A DNA stretch of 11,004 nucleotides. Origin: a bacterium. Lineage in GTDB: Bacteria; Krumholzibacteriota; Krumholzibacteria; LZORAL124-64-63. Of this stretch, positions 5,462 through 11,004 are shown in pieces (positions within the stretch are counted from its first letter, which is position 1; every line of letters starts with the position of its first letter). Position numbers and translations under genes: made by a program. The DNA is taken from the NCBI GenBank assembly GCA_003646045.1, contig QNDV01000047.1, positions 1 to 11,004 on the forward strand. The letters are read 5' to 3'. A model generated the notes under the pieces. The model made no database searches and was not told where the DNA came from. It saw nothing but the letters and a program-made list of their open reading frames with translations.

Positions 5462-6097
5462 TCAGATCAGGTCTTCCCGGATGGCCTTGGCCACCGCCGC
5501 GGTCTGCGAATGCACATGGAGCTTGCGGTAGATATTGCGGATGTGGAAGCGCACCGTATCGGCGGCCACACACAGGGAGTCGGCTATGGCCGCGTAGCTG
5601 TTGCCCTTGGCCAGGCTTGACAGCACCTCCTGCTCCCGCTCGGTGATGCGTATTTCCGACTCGCGGGGCGGTTGGAACTTGTCCTGGAAGAGGGCCACCA
5701 CTCGCCGGGCAATGCGCGACGACATGGGCGAACCGCCCTCGTGGGCGTCGGCTACCGCGGCCACCAGATCGGCCGGCGGTGTGTCCTTCAGCAGGTAGCC
5801 GCAGGCGCCGGCGCAAAGGGCCTTGAATATGTTTCCGTCGTCCTCGTGAATCGTCAGGATAACCACCTCTGTGGCTGGCTGGGACTCTTTTACCCGCATC
5901 GTGGCGTCGATGCCCGACATACCTGGCAGCCCGATATCCATGAGCACGATGTCCGGGCAGTCCGTGGCCAGGTTGGACAGCATGTCCTCGGCGTTAGGGT
6001 AGCGGCCCACGCAGGACAAGTCACCGGACACGCCCAGCAGGACGGCCAGACCTTCCCGTACCGCTTTCTTGTCCTCGACGATGACGATCCTGATCAT
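5462..6097 (-). CDS. NarL/LuxR-family response regulator
   Basis: The 211-residue protein has an N-terminal receiver domain (about 1-120): the acidic pair E8/D9, the phosphoacceptor D54 in VLMDIGLPGMSG, T82 and K104 are all present, so it should be phosphorylatable. A LuxR-type HTH follows (about 148-205: ITEREQEVLSSLAKG, then AADTVRFHIRNIYRKL), which binds DNA as a dimer. Start ATG at 6097 with GGAG about 7 bases upstream. The HisKA_3-type kinase encoded upstream on the same strand is the natural partner, since that kinase class pairs with NarL-type regulators. The two genes are separated by 397 bases, and this gene has its own good promoter (6168-6196). Likely targets include its own and the kinase promoter, judged from the shared boxes (inference). 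The M14 gene lies directly downstream. Confidence 0.95.
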   Translation of the reverse strand: MIRIVIVEDKKAVREGLAVLLGVSGDLSCVGRYPNAEDMLSNLATDCPDIVLMDIGLPGMSGIDATMRVKESQPATEVVILTIHEDDGNIFKALCAGACGYLLKDTPPADLVAAVADAHEGGSPMSSRIARRVVALFQDKFQPPRESEIRITEREQEVLSSLAKGNSYAAIADSLCVAADTVRFHIRNIYRKLHVHSQTAAVAKAIREDLI

Positions 6098-6105
6098 GGA
6101 GTAAC
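6091..6105 (+). promoter_or_regulatory. Additional ATCATG box over the response-regulator start codon
   Basis: TGATCATGGAGTAAC agrees at 13 of 15 positions with TGATCATGCAGTTAC of the box at 6263-6282 and has the same orientation. It spans the start codon (6095-6097), so part of the match is constrained by the Met-Ile codons. Bound protein here would act as an intragenic roadblock (inference). Confidence 0.3.
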
Positions 6106-6167
6106 TCCAAAGAAGGCATGGCAGATAGCTGATTTCGGTAACCCAATGTCGTCCTGATAGATAAACA

Positions 6168-6196
6168 ATTATCGCATTTCAGTGAAATGAGTTCAA
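6168..6196 (-). promoter_or_regulatory. Sigma70-type promoter of the response regulator
   Basis: On the minus strand TTGAAC (6191-6196) and GATAAT (6168-6173, 5/6) are separated by 17 bases. Predicted start of transcription is near 6161, giving a leader of about 63 bases before the ATG at 6097. It shows the regulator can be expressed apart from the kinase gene. Confidence 0.6.
6175..6189. promoter_or_regulatory. Inverted repeat filling the promoter spacer (operator candidate)
   Basis: CATTTC-AGT-GAAATG is a perfect 6-bp inverted repeat with a 3-base centre. It occupies 15 of the 17 spacer bases between the -35 and -10 boxes of the response-regulator promoter, a classic place for a repressor or a DNA-distorting activator. 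The binding protein is unknown. Confidence 0.45.
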
Positions 6197-6221
6197 CGGC
6201 TTATGCGGGTTCGGTGAATTA

Positions 6222-6282
6222 CCTACCCGATCATGCTGGTTTGACCCCTCCGTGAACGCTTTTCCACATGATCATGCAGTTA
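6222..6282 (+). promoter_or_regulatory. Paired ATCATG boxes upstream of the response regulator
   Basis: Two boxes share the core ATCATGC at 6230-6236 and 6271-6277, exactly 41 bases apart. The inner box reads CCTACCCGATCATGCTGGTT (6222-6241) and the outer TCCACATGATCATGCAGTTA (6263-6282). Both align without gaps to the pair upstream of the kinase gene at 9710-9770. The outer copy contains the 10-bp palindrome CATGATCATG (6267-6276). They lie about 125-185 bases upstream of the regulator start codon at 6097. Confidence 0.55.
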
Positions 6283-6494
6283 CCGGATACCGGTTAATTG
6301 ACCACATTTGCACTCGATACCCGACCGCAGTCGATGAGATTGCCTGCGTCGAGGGTCCAGCCATTCTGAATCAGCAGTTGAAACTATGCCTGTGGGGTCG
6401 GGGGATCAGGGAGTCGGCCCCACGGGCTGCCCATGGAGACGGAAACCACCGGAGTCGCCTGAATCGGATTGCCGGTCGGGAAGGGTGATCCGGG
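6283..6494. other. Non-coding stretch between kinase stop and the regulator's upstream boxes
   Basis: No coding region is supported. A GTG-started plus-strand frame at 6252-6488 has no ribosome site, an implausible composition and lies across the upstream boxes. Structures seen: ACCGG-ATA-CCGGT (6282-6294), and GTGGGG (6392-6397) paired with CCCCAC (6418-6423) about 70-100 bases after the kinase stop on its strand; without a T-run it is only a weak terminator candidate for the kinase mRNA. Confidence 0.35.
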
Positions 6495-8531
6495 CTAGCC
6501 GATGGACCCCGAGTATTCCACCGTCGTGCCTTCGCCGATGGAGGAATGGATGGAGACCACGCCGCCGATACGCTGCGCCCGGTTCTGCATGTTCTTCAAC
6601 CCGTTGCCCGTCGAATCATCCTTGATCTCGAAGCCGTCGCCATCGTCACGCAACTGCATCGTCAGTCTGCTCCCCTTCAGTTCGACCTTGAGGTTGATCT
6701 CGGTGCAGGCGCTGTACTTCAGGCTGTTGTTGATGGCTTCCTTGAAAATCAGCAAAAGGTGCTGCCGGTATTCCATCTTCAGTCGCACGGATTTCAAGGA
6801 GTCCAGGTTCTCGGCCGTGAATCGGATATCCAGGCCACGCAGGGTTTCGCTGAATGAATCACTCAGCCTGGAGATCAGGTCGTACAACGAGTCCCGTCCC
6901 GGATCCACCAGCCATACGATATCGCTCATGCTGACGATCAGGGTTCTGGCCGTCGTACGGATCTTCTCCGTTTCGGATTTGACGAGCTGGCGCGGTTCCG
7001 GCGGGAGTTTTTGGGCAATGATATGGCCCATGAGGGTGATCTCGGTCAGTCCGGCGCCGATATCGTCGTGAAGATCCGCGGCTATCTTGCTCCGCAGGCG
7101 TTCGATGGCCAGGAGTTGCCTGACGCGGATGGTGATCAGGGCCGCAACGCCGCCCCCGATGGCCGTGACCAGCAGGAGGATGAACCACCACGTCTTCCAG
7201 AACGGTGGTGTGATGACGATTCTGATGGAAGCGATGTCGTCGCTCCAGACTCCGTCGCCGTTGGTCCCCTTCACCATGAAGGTGTATGAGCCCGCATCCA
7301 CGTGGGTATAACCCACAAAATTCCTCGTGCCGGCCTGGGTCCACGCCTTGTCCAGCCCCTGGAGCATGTATGAGTAGCGATTGCGGTCCGGCGTGGAGAA
7401 ATCCATCGCGGCGAATTCGAACGAGAAGTAATTGTCGCGATAGGAGAGCGTTATCTCGTTGCAGCACGAGAGGGACTTGCCGAGGCGGGCCGGCTGATCG
7501 AAGATGTTGAATCCCGTCAACACCACCGGGGGGGCATAGGCACTGTCCACTATGCTGTCCGGATCGAACTCGCTCGCCCCACCCACGCCGCCGAAGACGA
7601 AAGTGCCCGCGGCCGTTCGGGCATAGGCCCCCGTGTTGTATTCGTTCCCCAGCAGTCCGTCGCGGGTATCGTAGTTCCTGAATATCCCCGTATCCGGGTC
7701 GAAACACGACAGGCCGTAGTTGGTGCTGAGCCAGAGCCTGCCGCGGTCGTCCTCGAGTATGCCGTAGACCACATCACTCGGCAGTCCGTTCTTCATGAAA
7801 TAGCGGTGGAACACCGGGTGGTCACGGTCGCTTTTGCGGAGCCGGGACAAACCCAGCATGGTGCCGAACCACAAGTCCCCGTTGCGTGCCTCGTGAATGG
7901 ACAGGACATAGCTGTTGCTGATGGATCGCGGGTCGTCCGGATCGTGATGGAACCTGGTGATGTGGGGCTGCCGATCACCGGCGGAAACCGGCTCCGTCGG
8001 GTCCCCGTCGAAAACCAGCCGGTTCAGGCCGCTCGCAGTGGCGACCCAATACGTCCCGTTGCTGTCCTGCAGCAGGGATACGACGCTGTTGTTGCTGAGG
8101 CTGGCCGGATCATCCGGGTGATGTCCGAAATTGATGAAGGTTCCGGTTCGCGGGTCGTAGTTGTCCAGGCCCCCTTTCCAGGTGCCGAACCACATGTCCC
8201 CGCAGTCGTCCTGGTAGACGGCCCGCACGTTGTTGCTGCTGATGGTATTGGCCGCGCCCTGCACGTGGCGCATGTTTCTGAACCTGCCGGTACCGGGATC
8301 GTAGACATCGACACCTGTATAGAGCCGTCCTATCCAGAGCGAGCCGCCGTCATCCCAGGTGAGGCAGCGGGTGAAGTTGCGCCTCTTGACGTCGCCGGCG
8401 CCGACCGGATCGAGAAGGTGGTGCTCAACCCTGCCTGTATCACGATCATAGCGGTCCAACCCGCTGGAAGTACCGAACCACAGACCAGCGGATGGACCTT
8501 CGGCAACCGCCCACAGGATTGGAGCACTCAA
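6495..8531 (-). CDS. Sensor histidine kinase, C-terminal part (second propeller, Y_Y_Y, kinase core) of a frameshifted gene
   Basis: This ORF (678 residues from the TTG at 8531) continues the protein begun at 9631. It holds about six or seven two-component propeller repeats (LWFGT/LWIGR/MWFGT type, 1-320), a Y_Y_Y domain (about 365-440), one membrane helix (about 448-470), and a cytoplasmic kinase: HisKA_3 phosphoacceptor H488 in LHDDIGAGL, HATPase N box around EAINNSLKYS (598-607), G1 DDGDGF (629-634) and G2 GNGLKNM (643-649). It should phosphorylate a NarL-type regulator, most likely the one at 5462-6097. On its own this piece would lack a signal peptide, so the propeller could not reach the periplasm. 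The TTG overlaps the stop of the upstream ORF (TTGA), which would allow re-initiation, but sequence in this frame upstream of the TTG (HYRYDPDDPNG) still reads as propeller, showing the TTG is not the true start. Confidence 0.9.
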   Translation of the reverse strand: MSAPILWAVAEGPSAGLWFGTSSGLDRYDRDTGRVEHHLLDPVGAGDVKRRNFTRCLTWDDGGSLWIGRLYTGVDVYDPGTGRFRNMRHVQGAANTISSNNVRAVYQDDCGDMWFGTWKGGLDNYDPRTGTFINFGHHPDDPASLSNNSVVSLLQDSNGTYWVATASGLNRLVFDGDPTEPVSAGDRQPHITRFHHDPDDPRSISNSYVLSIHEARNGDLWFGTMLGLSRLRKSDRDHPVFHRYFMKNGLPSDVVYGILEDDRGRLWLSTNYGLSCFDPDTGIFRNYDTRDGLLGNEYNTGAYARTAAGTFVFGGVGGASEFDPDSIVDSAYAPPVVLTGFNIFDQPARLGKSLSCCNEITLSYRDNYFSFEFAAMDFSTPDRNRYSYMLQGLDKAWTQAGTRNFVGYTHVDAGSYTFMVKGTNGDGVWSDDIASIRIVITPPFWKTWWFILLLVTAIGGGVAALITIRVRQLLAIERLRSKIAADLHDDIGAGLTEITLMGHIIAQKLPPEPRQLVKSETEKIRTTARTLIVSMSDIVWLVDPGRDSLYDLISRLSDSFSETLRGLDIRFTAENLDSLKSVRLKMEYRQHLLLIFKEAINNSLKYSACTEINLKVELKGSRLTMQLRDDGDGFEIKDDSTGNGLKNMQNRAQRIGGVVSIHSSIGEGTTVEYSGSIG

Positions 8532-9631
8532 GCCGTTCGGGTCGTCCGGGTCGTACCTGTAGTGTCGGTAGCGTCGGTATGGGGGTCGTGGATACTCAAC
8601 CCCCCGCCGATGGTGCCAATCCAGAGGATTCCACCGTCGTCCTGGAAGGTCACGCGAACGCTGTTGTTGCTCAGGCTGCGCGGGTCAGCCTGGTTGTGGC
8701 GATAGGTGGTGAAGGTGTTTGTGCCGCGGTGAAGGAGGTTGAGGCCGCCATTGGTCGTGCTGATCCACAGGCGTTCTTGTCGGTCTTCATAAGTCTTGCG
8801 GATACTGTCGGCGCTGATGCTGGCTGGGTCCGCCGGGTCATTCACGTAGTTGACGAAGCGCTTTGTCACGGGATGAAACTGCGCAAGTCCTCCTGCCGTG
8901 GATACCCAAAGTATTCCTGACCGGTCCCGGAGCAGGTGTCGGACATTGTTGCTGCCAATGGTGTTGGTGCCCTCCGGCCCGGCCTGGTAATGGGTGAATT
9001 CGCCTCGATCCACCTCGAGACGGCTGAAACCGCGGTTGGTGGCGATCCAGAGTACGGCGCCGGAATCCGGATAGACAAACCGCACATTGTCACTGGGCAG
9101 GCCATCGGTGGCGGCGGGGTCGTGCCTCATGTGCAGGAACCGGTTTGACCCGGCCCGTAGCCGATTCAGTCCGCCATCCCGGGTACCGATCCACAAATCG
9201 CCCTGTTCGTCTTCCGCAATGGAACGGATACGATTGCTGCTGATGCTGCAGGAATCCGCAGGGTCATGAACGAAGCGCGTGAAGGTCTCGGTTGCGGGGT
9301 CGTACCGGTTCAATCCGGCCGAGAAGGTCCCGATCCAGAGGTACCCGTCTCGATCCACATGGAGGCACCAGATGTTGTTGCCGGAAATCGATCCCGGGAT
9401 ATCGGGGTCATGTTTGAATTTAGTGAAGGTATACCCGTCGTAGCGGTTCAAACCGTCCTCGGTTCCGAACCACATGAACCCTGCCTGATCCTGCACGATG
9501 GCTTCGACCGTCGATTGTGACAGGCCGTCCTCGATGGACAACCTCCTGAACCTCACGTTGCCCTGTGCTGATACGGATTGGGCCAGCATCAACAGCAGAG
9601 CGACGACAGCGGATGCATACCTGATGCTCAT
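8528..9631 (-). CDS. Sensor histidine kinase, N-terminal part (signal peptide and first beta-propeller) of a frameshifted gene
   Basis: From the ATG at 9631 the product is 367 residues. It opens with a signal peptide (MSIRYASAVVALLLMLAQSV, cleavage near VSA-Q at 22) and then carries seven two-component propeller repeats with the WFGT/WIGT/WIAT/WVST/WIST cores and linkers of the type HDPxDPxSISxNxI. Seven here plus about seven in the downstream ORF give two seven-bladed propellers, the architecture of periplasmic sensors of sugars or polysaccharide fragments in hybrid two-component systems. The ligand here is unknown. The last 14 residues are out of frame and not native. The ATG at 9631 has GGTG 6 bases upstream; alternatives are an ATG at 9643 and a GTG at 9709, which would add an unlikely n-region. 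The upstream region holds the paired ATCATG boxes. Confidence 0.9.
   Translation of the reverse strand: MSIRYASAVVALLLMLAQSVSAQGNVRFRRLSIEDGLSQSTVEAIVQDQAGFMWFGTEDGLNRYDGYTFTKFKHDPDIPGSISGNNIWCLHVDRDGYLWIGTFSAGLNRYDPATETFTRFVHDPADSCSISSNRIRSIAEDEQGDLWIGTRDGGLNRLRAGSNRFLHMRHDPAATDGLPSDNVRFVYPDSGAVLWIATNRGFSRLEVDRGEFTHYQAGPEGTNTIGSNNVRHLLRDRSGILWVSTAGGLAQFHPVTKRFVNYVNDPADPASISADSIRKTYEDRQERLWISTTNGGLNLLHRGTNTFTTYRHNQADPRSLSNNSVRVTFQDDGGILWIGTIGGGLSIHDPHTDATDTTGTTRTTRTA
8571..8586 (-). other. Frameshift site splitting the kinase gene
   Basis: The first frame is normal propeller until IHDPHTD and then degenerates to ATDTTGTTRTTRTA before a TGA at 8528. The other frame reads YRHYRYDPDDPNGLSAPILW, a normal propeller linker. 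Between the two flanking DP motifs there are 26 bases where the sister repeats have 27 (DPATETFTRFVHDP type), so exactly one base is missing. Likely places are the GACGC at 8571-8575 or the run of five G (plus strand) at 8581-8585. It is either a sequencing or assembly error or a true inactivating mutation; the intact gene would run 6495-9631. Confidence 0.88.
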
Positions 9632-9709
9632 GGGTGGCACCATACGCCGCGCCAATAGTCGTGTCCAGAGTCCCGAAAACCGACTTCGGATGCATATGCG
9701 GATTTGCAC

Positions 9710-9770
9710 CCTGCATGATCATGCGGGTTCCGCACCGCCCGCCCAGTGAATCCACATCATCATGTAGTTA
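9710..9770 (+). promoter_or_regulatory. Paired ATCATG boxes upstream of the sensor kinase
   Basis: The inner box CCTGCATGATCATGCGGGTT (9710-9729) and the outer box TCCACATCATCATGTAGTTA (9751-9770) have cores ATCATGC at 9718 and ATCATGT at 9759, again 41 bases apart. The outer box is 18/20 identical to that upstream of the response regulator. The inner box holds a perfect 12-bp palindrome GCATGATCATGC (9713-9724). The boxes lie about 80-140 bases before the kinase ATG (9631), and on the other side the lipoprotein gene starts at 9938, so both could be controlled. Confidence 0.55.
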
Positions 9771-9937
9771 TTTGAGTTCTGACAATCGTTTAGCATCATC
9801 TCGGTAACACATTGCTCAATACTGCGGCAATGATATACGACGCGCAGAGACCTCCTTATTGAGGCAGTCGTCGTTCTGGCCTGCGGGGTTGGGGATGGGG
9901 TGATGGCCCCCAGGTCGTCCTTTCAGAGGGAGAAACC
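9771..9937 (+). promoter_or_regulatory. Leader region of the lipoprotein gene with a dyad and a weak promoter
   Basis: CATTGC (9810-9815) and GCAATG (9827-9832) form a dyad with an 11-base centre. It overlaps a weak promoter candidate, TTGCTC (9812-9817) and TATACG (9834-9839), spaced 16 bases. A G-rich stretch (about 9881-9915) that can pair TGGGG with CCCCA precedes the GGGAGA ribosome site at 9928-9933. All calls here are tentative. Confidence 0.3.
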
Positions 9938-11004
9938 ATGATTCGCCTGAAAAAGAACTACGCGCAGACCGGGGTCCTGGTCCTGGCCCTGCTGTTCCTG
10001 ACAATCTTTCTGGCGTCCTGCAGCGACGACGATCCGGTCGTTCCCGGGGACACCAACGGAGCTCCGACCGTGCCGGCGATTGACACGGCGTCAGGTGCAC
10101 CCGCCAATGCGGCCACGGGCGTCGATCTGGCGACGGATCTGCACTGGACCTGTTCCGATCCAGACGATGAAGCCCTGACCTACACCGTGCGTTTTGGCAC
10201 GGCGGCGGAGCCGGACATGGTGGAGGACGAATACGTGCCCACCAGCTACACGCCGGCCGGTCTCGTCAACGGCACCACCTACTACTGGCAGATCATCGCC
10301 AGTGACGGCGCCAAGTCCACCTCCTCGCCGGTGTGGAGCTTCACGACCCTGGCCATCGTCGCCGAAACCGTCACCAGCCCCGATACCCCCGACGGCCCGG
10401 CCGGCGGCGAGGTCGATGACGTGCTGGCCTACACCACGGCCGGCGGCGTGAGCAGTGAAGGCCACGCCCTCGAGTACCGCTTCGACTGGGACGACGGCAC
10501 CATGTCGGCTTGGTCGACCACCGTGCCCGTCAGCCACGCCTGGACCCTGGCCGGCACCTACGCCGTGACGGCCCAGGCCCGTTGCATCGAGCACCCGGAT
10601 GCCGTGTCCAGCACCTCGGTGGCCCTGCAGGTGATCATCGACGGGCCGGAGAACGTGACGGCGCCCATGGCGCCGGGTGGTTCCAACACGGTCGAGGTCG
10701 AGATAGCGACCAGCTATTCGCTTTACGGCGCGGTCAGCAGCCGTGGTCACACGCTCGAATATCGCGTCGACTGGGGCGACGAAACCATGTCCGACTGGGG
10801 CCCCGGCGGTGTCGTGAACCGGACCTGGACCGCGACGGGCACTTACGCCGTCTTCACCCAGGCCCGCTGCCTGGATCACCCCGACGTGGAGTCGGTCTGG
10901 TCGACCGGCCTCATGGTCACGGTGCTGGCCCCGGAAACCATCAGTACTCCCGACGCGCCAGTGGGCCCGGCAACGGTCGTGGCTGACGTGAACACACGCT
11001 ACGA
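9938..11004 (+). CDS. Lipoprotein with Fn3-like domain and PKD-like repeats (3' end cut by window edge)
   Basis: The frame is open from the ATG at 9938 to the end of the window (355 residues). GGGAGA stands 4 bases before the ATG. The N-terminus MIRLKKNYAQ plus a hydrophobic stretch ending FLASC is a lipoprotein signal with lipidated Cys28, followed by an acidic SDDDP linker. Residues about 41-137 resemble an Fn3-type domain (SDPDDEALTYTVRFG, NGTTYYWQIIASDG). From 143 on come PKD-like repeats of exactly 95 residues (143-237, 238-332, 333 onward), each with GHxLEYRxDWxD near its centre, a GTYAV strand and one conserved Cys in QARC. Such proteins are cell-surface or secreted adhesion or scaffold proteins. 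It is divergent from the kinase gene, with shared upstream DNA. Total length and any catalytic domain are not visible. Confidence 0.88.
   Translation, partial: MIRLKKNYAQTGVLVLALLFLTIFLASCSDDDPVVPGDTNGAPTVPAIDTASGAPANAATGVDLATDLHWTCSDPDDEALTYTVRFGTAAEPDMVEDEYVPTSYTPAGLVNGTTYYWQIIASDGAKSTSSPVWSFTTLAIVAETVTSPDTPDGPAGGEVDDVLAYTTAGGVSSEGHALEYRFDWDDGTMSAWSTTVPVSHAWTLAGTYAVTAQARCIEHPDAVSSTSVALQVIIDGPENVTAPMAPGGSNTVEVEIATSYSLYGAVSSRGHTLEYRVDWGDETMSDWGPGGVVNRTWTATGTYAVFTQARCLDHPDVESVWSTGLMVTVLAPETISTPDAPVGPATVVADVNTRY
10364..10648 (+). repeat. PKD-like repeat unit 1 (285 bp)
   Basis: Encodes residues 143-237, opening ETVTSPDTPDGPAGG and including GHALEYRFDWDDGTMSAWS and AGTYAVTAQARC. Same length and register as the next unit. 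Confidence 0.8.
10649..10933 (+). repeat. PKD-like repeat unit 2 (285 bp)
   Basis: Encodes residues 238-332, opening ENVTAPMAPGGSNTVE and including GHTLEYRVDWGDETMSDWG and TGTYAVFTQARC. It aligns to unit 1 without a length change and has diverged in sequence. Confidence 0.8.
10934..11004 (+). repeat. PKD-like repeat unit 3 (start only, cut by window edge)
   Basis: Opens ETISTPDAPVGPATVVADVN, matching the first residues of units 1 and 2 at the expected 285-base period; the rest is outside the window. Confidence 0.65.

Follow-up and report, generated by a model that had tools for sequence, protein, structure and literature searches.

What do the repeated ATCATG boxes at a Krumholzibacteriota two-component locus bind, and which genes do they serve? 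The window analysed here, the whole 11,004-nucleotide stretch of contig QNDV01000047.1 (63% G+C), encodes a NarL-type response regulator, a propeller sensor kinase and a divergent lipoprotein with PKD repeats, and it carries a pair of boxes in each of two intergenic gaps, 6098-6494 and about 9632-9937. To our knowledge, this phylum has been little studied and is known almost only from metagenomes. The first-pass annotation had proposed that a single factor, probably the NarL-type regulator bound as two dimers, controls the kinase and regulator genes and perhaps the lipoprotein gene. The boxes are real, and the core of that proposal (binding sites, the NarL-type regulator, the lipoprotein target) is well supported. 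Most likely, the boxes are operators of a dimer of the neighbouring regulator, which would activate genes for exported proteins, here that of the divergent lipoprotein.

Our recount agreed with the box coordinates first given. Positions 6222-6282 and 9710-9770 align without a gap (40 of 61 bases identical, and 18 of 20 in the outer boxes), and the ATCATG cores stand at 6230, 6271, 9718 and 9759, with a spacing of 41 base pairs (bp) in both pairs. The boxes form the core of a 16-bp mirror-symmetric dyad with the consensus CCGCAT-N4-ATGCGG and a half-site of about TCATGCGG, seen in GCATGATCATGC at 9713 and CATGATCATG at 6267; the first-pass annotation had overlooked this symmetry. When the two intergenic regions alone were compared, none of 1000 shuffles reached the box score of 19. 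In the ungapped comparison of the whole window, the support was modest, with 4 of 100 shuffled windows reaching that score; an internal repeat of the lipoprotein gene scored 63 in the same comparison.

Next, related genomes were examined. The comparison set comprised 80 genomes of the phylum of L001, the locus that best matches the M14 peptidase of the window; the loci titled Krumholzibacteriota (L002, L004, and L005) are from the same phylum. The regulator was matched at E ≤ 1e-45 in four of the 80 genomes (G020, 70% identity; G033, 59%; G061, 52%; G072, 50%), and the kinase at E ≤ 1e-100 in 11, with identities of 60 to 70% in G028, G072, and G033 and of 39 to 45% in the rest. Among protein sequences, closer relatives were listed, with 75 to 90% identity to the regulator and 78 to 88% to the kinase. 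A dyad lies 75 to 113 bp ahead of exported-protein start codons in four related genomes and of the regulator start codon in three; lipoprotein or exported status was judged by eye from the N termini. G028 mirrors the window, with a kinase about 69 to 70% identical, a divergent PKD lipoprotein and, between the two, dyads CCGCATGACCATGCGG and CCGCACATTCGTGCGG, 52 bp apart. G033 has two dyads, likewise 52 bp apart, before a lipoprotein gene and another between its regulator and kinase genes, and G061 has two dyads 61 bp apart between divergent genes on the contig of its regulator, with a separate -10 for each dyad directed at the gene on that side. The dyads of G072 are single, with no second dyad 25 to 80 bp away. 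They stand before the regulator gene, a tandem pair of exported-protein genes, a lipoprotein gene and one more exported-protein gene, the last found by pattern search only. The predicted targets are PKD lipoproteins, a lipoprotein with an FGE-sulfatase domain, exported proteins with beta-helix and FG-GAP domains, and the regulator itself.

The dyads proved to hold a fixed distance to a promoter element. A -10 hexamer was scored as present when at least four of its six bases matched and it lay 30.5 to 33.5 bp from the dyad centre, toward the gene. Eight of the 10 site/gene pairs outside the window had such a hexamer, a number reached by none of 5000 shuffles (mean, 0.79), and a sliding control peaked at this distance; the two misses were the kinase genes of G028 and G033. 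Before the regulator genes of G033, G061, and G072, the -10 follows the dyad at 31.5, 31.5, and 30.5 bp, which fits autoregulation. With a -10 at 31.5 bp, the 16-bp site extends from about -51 to -36, right up to the -35. Class II activators bind at sites centred near -41 to -44 and touch the -35, and the lipoprotein promoter of the window, as positioned from its candidate -10, would match this geometry with its dyad at about -43. CATCAT at 34.5 bp scores equal to TAGCAT as the -10 of this promoter. The lipoprotein promoter is the only one in the window with the canonical -10 distance, in keeping with the earlier suggestion that the divergent gene is a target. Given that dyads recur in relatives at a fixed -10 distance, the boxes are most likely selected factor-binding sites, as first proposed.

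Two matrices were used to rank the 10,989 positions of the window, one built from the five sites of G061 and G072 and the other from 11 sites outside the window. With the five-site matrix, 9711, 6264, 9686, and 9752 were the top four positions (21.8, 18.0, 12.7, and 10.8). Since 100 shuffled windows had maxima averaging 10.8 and peaking at 19.1, only 9711 exceeded every shuffle, and 6264 fell just below the highest. With the 11-site matrix, 9711 (23.1) and 6264 (19.8) both rose above the shuffle maximum of 17.8. The five-site matrix also placed the G033 sites in the top four (that at 10231 is not promoter linked), the G028 sites in the top two and the G072 lipoprotein site first in their stretches. 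When each genome in turn was left out of the matrix, the known sites again scored best in G028, G033, G061, and G072, apart from three new sites that took third place in L122 and third and fourth place in G061. These stand before a further exported-protein gene in G072 and before the regulator and kinase genes of G061. Two of the three fit the distance test, that of the G061 regulator gene (TATACT, 31.5 bp) and the third site of G072:C65 (CATAAT, 31.5 bp); the site before the G061 kinase gene has no canonical -10. The first-pass annotation had also listed a fifth box at 6091-6105 (13 of 15 bases against 6269-6283, counted by eye). It was rejected as an operator: its GATCAT is the opposite strand of the first two regulator codons, ATG ATC (Met-Ile), and its best matrix score was 0.9.

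Several arrangements were seen in the relatives. G072:C65 (L122:775-4607) holds an exported-protein gene twice in tandem, the operators of the two copies being identical, and its third operator (775-790) lies 88.5 bp before another, upstream exported-protein gene. In G033, the good dyad CCGCATGCTCATGCCG at L029:10231-10246 is away from any promoter: the lipoprotein and regulator genes converge there, and it lies between their 3' ends. The leaders L066:1340-1454 (G028) and L029:8302-8420 (G033) share a long block after the -10, with GGGAACAA and CTTTCCTTTT-like parts (score of 29 versus a shuffle mean of 8.2), which is possibly an attenuator-like element.

Across the 80 genomes, the specific signal is the dyad together with the -10 distance. 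GCAT-N4-ATGC followed by TANAAT at the canonical distance matched 13 times in seven genomes, nine of these in G028, G033, and G072, against three matches of a reversed control; six of the 13 had shaped the search pattern. One of the remainder, at G072:C312, has TATAAT at 31.5 bp, as the pattern required. The single exact match to CCGCATGANNATGCGG in G028 and the only two one-mismatch matches in G033 lie on the contigs of the system. The box CACATNATCATGNAGTT, with at most one mismatch, occurred 20 times, once each in 20 genomes (reversed control, 1). Frequent matches inside genes had been named beforehand as a sign against selected sites, and for the bare box this is what was found: 18 of the 20 fall within frames, counted from stop to stop on either strand, that are 100 codons or longer. 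None of the 20 has an ATCATG exactly 41 bp before it, and one coding match (L045) has it at 42. Of the two noncoding matches, L047 is the site before the G072 lipoprotein gene, and the other is L034 (G026:C67:17281); genome G026 has no regulator match at E ≤ 1e-45. A strict pair pattern matched at two places in the 80 genomes, on the system's contig in G061 and in G070, against one for the reversed control.

How the sites might work follows from their position. The propeller sensor kinase would phosphorylate the regulator, and the phosphorylated dimer would bind the dyad at about -43, touching the -35, and so activate exported-protein genes, here the PKD lipoprotein gene at 9938. In the relatives, the regulator may also activate its own gene, and exported-protein gene activation is taken as the main output. 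Where a second site is present, it is some four or five helical turns farther upstream and may aid through cooperative binding. The pair spacings are 41 bp (twice, in the duplicated regions described below), 52 bp (twice), and 61 bp, or about 3.9, 5.0, and 5.8 turns of 10.5 bp; six other sites had no partner within 25 to 80 bp (best score, 3.4). In the 41- and 52-bp pairs, both dimers would sit on the same side of the helix, a phasing that is only suggestive because independent spacings are few. The 52-bp pair appears to belong to the lipoprotein promoter, because it is shared, along with the leader block that follows the -10 there, by G028 and G033 despite their different divergent neighbours (a kinase gene in G028 and a glycosyltransferase-like frame, identified by eye, in G033).

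A number of observations weigh against this account. The proximal lipoprotein site at 9752 is weak, its scores of 10.8 to 11.9 only equalling the mean maximum of shuffled windows, and the regulator and kinase promoters of the window have no -10 of at least four of six bases at 30.5 to 33.5 bp. The initial sites were chosen by eye for their resemblance to the window boxes, and the matrix test was therefore not wholly blind; the leave-one-out finds and the -10 distance test are less dependent on that choice. The bare dyad is hardly enriched, with 30 exact sites in 24 of the 80 genomes versus 19 for the control, and at two mismatches, among the matches listed, noncarriers such as G063 exceed the control, as do carriers. 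Only one of the seven new matches to the pattern of dyad and -10 is intergenic (G072 C312, before an exported-protein gene); the other six overlap reading frames, and three of the seven are in G072. G020, which has the closest regulator found in these genomes and a nearly identical recognition helix (DTIRYHIRNIY), has no dyad on its 8.3-kb contig. G028, a draft genome, has operators and a kinase gene and no regulator match at E ≤ 1e-45, and the G072 locus of the 61% identical kinase lacks any site with 10 of the 12 consensus bases. Because each G061 site has its own -10, that pair need not be cooperative and may represent two back-to-back single-site promoters.

The model first put forward, in which two dimers 41 bp apart activate the kinase and regulator genes, fared unevenly and is unlikely as a whole. 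Sites do stand upstream of both genes, both of which have sigma-70-like promoters; the kinase promoter would put the dyad at 9686 close to -61, which is a class I position; and the regulator genes of three relatives carry the operator. The distance from box to promoter, however, is 17 bp longer at one gene than at the other, no canonical -10 faces either of the two genes in the window, and in the relatives the distance test failed at the kinase genes of G028, G033, and G061. The distance holds at the regulator genes of G033, G061, and G072, and in the window neither the kinase nor the regulator gene appears to be a chief target.

The preferred reading, in which the neighbouring regulator is the ligand, must also be weighed against another dimeric factor, encoded elsewhere, that uses the dyads and co-regulates the two-component and exported-protein genes. 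A 16-bp palindrome is compatible with many families, and the regulator of G020 without an operator and the operators of G028 without a detected regulator suit such a factor. We nevertheless consider it improbable: the two-component contig carries sites in G028, G033, and G061, a site directly precedes the regulator gene in three of the four genomes with a regulator match (G033, G061, and G072, with none in G020), and the recognition helix is nearly alike in these three and the window (DTVR-HIRNIY). In addition, CrbR, a response regulator of the LuxR family, reportedly depends on an inverted repeat in the same position (PMC5715377). The sites were taken as operators of the neighbouring regulator because of this class II, CrbR-like position and the autoregulatory geometry before regulator genes; that the NarL-type regulator binds the dyads is likely, and the proposal made from the window is in this respect probably correct. 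In 12 further genomes chosen by their peptidase loci, the regulator was matched at E ≤ 1e-45 in two, G091 (three genes, 43 to 48% identity) and G003, and neither set of loci has a site with 10 of 12 consensus bases; the G003 helix differs (YTVDTHIRNIY), and the absence there covers the 3.6 kb examined. Among viral contigs, 19 stretches matched, none of them related to the regulator.

The equal spacing of the two window pairs, offered earlier as a sign of independent selection, did not hold up in that role. Positions 6388-6463 and 9879-9951 share a second block, absent from the first-pass annotation, which spans the lipoprotein start codon (gapped local alignment score of 22, reached by 0 of 1000 shuffles, whose maximum was 15 to 16), and the offsets between the regions are nearly equal, 3488 at the boxes and 3491 at the start of this leader block. 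Because a second shared block at a near-equal offset accompanies the boxes, the two regions probably go back to an old duplication, after which the boxes and leader were retained and the remainder drifted. The stretch between the boxes is indeed not conserved, as had been claimed (10 of 25 bases identical; P = 0.16, shuffle level), the 105 and 108 bases from the boxes to the right block are also at the shuffle level (54 of 114 columns identical; P = 0.40), and similarity stops behind 6463. Duplication appears to be the best explanation for the equal 41-bp spacing, and in other genomes the spacing is 52 or 61 bp or the site has no partner. As to direction, we infer that about 6200-6463 is the copy of the kinase/lipoprotein intergenic region and that the lipoprotein coding sequence was lost from it.

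That duplication is the whole story, the boxes matching only since 6200-6463 copies 9690-9951 and being no binding sites, is highly improbable: the likeness does reach a second block at a near-equal offset that has no clear match in six leaders from related promoters (lowest P in 12 comparisons, 0.03), but the dyads were kept while the sequence between the kept blocks drifted, and dyads with a constant distance to the -10 are found again in other genomes, which already contradicts duplication as a full account and leaves it standing for the 41-bp spacing. The shared leader block is G rich. Both 101-nucleotide leaders fold no better than shuffles (z of 1.72 and 0.29), and the window has no Rfam match up to an E value of 1. 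In a look for a mobile or dispersed repeat, which would show as many copies of the whole element, DNA 9690-9960 had no match at E ≤ 0.01 in the 80 genomes, a result of little weight since an empty answer tells something only beside a known positive. A long shot is that the lipoprotein promoter copy that lacks a gene (about 6200-6463) is a working part, titrating the regulator or giving a short leader RNA that runs counter to the kinase transcript at its 3' end and so feeding back, with the dyad marking an old regulon of surface or secreted proteins under a propeller-sensor system.

Operators of the kind favoured here, bound by the neighbouring regulator, are of a known type, and the operator and regulon are new. 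The kinase resembles the Reg_prop/Y_Y_Y sensors (PF07494 and PF07495) in its propeller repeats, Y_Y_Y domain, and HisKA_3 kinase. The best-known propeller sensors of Bacteroides are one-protein hybrids with AraC-type output, whereas kinase and NarL-type regulator are on separate genes in the window. LuxR, a GerE-type helix-turn-helix protein that binds the lux box near -42.5, likewise uses a palindromic site touching the -35; it differs in its autoinducer control, its lack of a receiver domain, and its 20-bp site of another sequence. A close parallel in class of regulator and in position of an inverted repeat just upstream of the promoter is CrbR of Pseudomonas fluorescens, a LuxR-family two-component response regulator; the passages describing it state that activation requires ACTU, an imperfect inverted repeat that spans -52 to -36 and directly adjoins the RpoD promoter, and that 91 of 112 promoter regions from 31 species contain ACTU (PMC5715377). 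CrbR differs in the sequence of ACTU, in its SLC5/STAC kinase family, and in its acetate-use targets, and those passages mention no second upstream site (PMC5715377). A literature search by title, which left most subscription papers outside, found among the titles listed nothing on this operator or on two-component targets in Krumholzibacteriota. The analysis thus offers an operator, a promoter geometry and a first predicted target set for a signalling system of a little-studied phylum, as well as an example of how a duplicated intergenic region can mimic two independently selected site pairs.

Table 1. Positions and supporting evidence for the features of the window
Feature	Position	Strand	Evidence or remark
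Operator dyad CTGCATGATCATGCGG, strongest of the window; inner kinase-side box; distal lipoprotein-promoter site, centre about -84	9711..9726	+	Rank 1 in both scans
Operator dyad CCACATCATCATGTAG, proximal lipoprotein-promoter site, centre about -43.5	9752..9767	+	Ranks 3 (11-site matrix) and 4 (G061+G072 matrix)
Third dyad TCGGATGCATATGCGG, kinase side, missed in the first-pass annotation	9686..9701	+	Ranks 4 (11-site) and 3 (G061+G072); 10 of 12 consensus bases
Operator dyad CCACATGATCATGCAG, upstream of regulator gene; duplicated-region counterpart of 9752	6264..6279	+	Rank 2 in both scans
Weak site CTACCCGATCATGCTG, one good half; counterpart of 9711	6223..6238	+	Rank 5 (11-site); outside the six best with G061+G072 matrix
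Candidate -10 TAGCAT, lipoprotein promoter	9791..9796	+	4 of 6 bases; 31.5 bp from centre of 9752-9767
Lipoprotein leader block, into codon 5	9879..9951	+	Local alignment to 6388-6463
Leader-block copy without coding sequence behind it	6388..6463	+	52 of 77 aligned columns identical, P < 0.001
PKD-repeat lipoprotein gene, running beyond contig end	9938..11002	+	PKD_4 3.2e-10; lipobox LASC (by eye)
NarL-type response regulator	5462..6097	-	Pfam domain matches: Response_reg 1.5e-23, GerE 5e-16
Sensor kinase, C-terminal part (Reg_prop, Y_Y_Y, HisKA_3, HATPase_c)	6495..8531	-	Domain matches; frame ends at 6495
Sensor kinase, N-terminal part (Reg_prop propeller), different frame	8528..9709	-	
Sigma-70-like promoter, regulator gene	6168..6196	-	TTGAAC-17-GATAAT, TG before -10; consensus match only (shuffle mean, 0.4)
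Sigma-70-like promoter, kinase gene	9639..9667	-	TGGACA-17-TATGGT, one of two such matches in 9580-9960; consensus match only (shuffle mean, 0.5)
M14 peptidase			Best match L001 (71%)

The gene products of the window are consistent with a two-component system. The frame at 5462-6097 combines a receiver domain with a GerE/LuxR helix-turn-helix, the combination that defines the NarL/FixJ type. The kinase is broken into two frames at 8528-8590, near a run of five C residues on the minus strand, and its likely start is the signal-peptide ATG at 9631 (judged by eye). Because most of the 120 kinase relatives listed are single proteins, of about 1000 to 1100 residues, the break is either a real frameshift or an assembly error. 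Elsewhere in the window, a small Gly/Arg/Pro-rich frame (1103-1339) is flanked by a DUF134 protein and a DUF2214 membrane protein and lies beside a ParA/ferredoxin frame.

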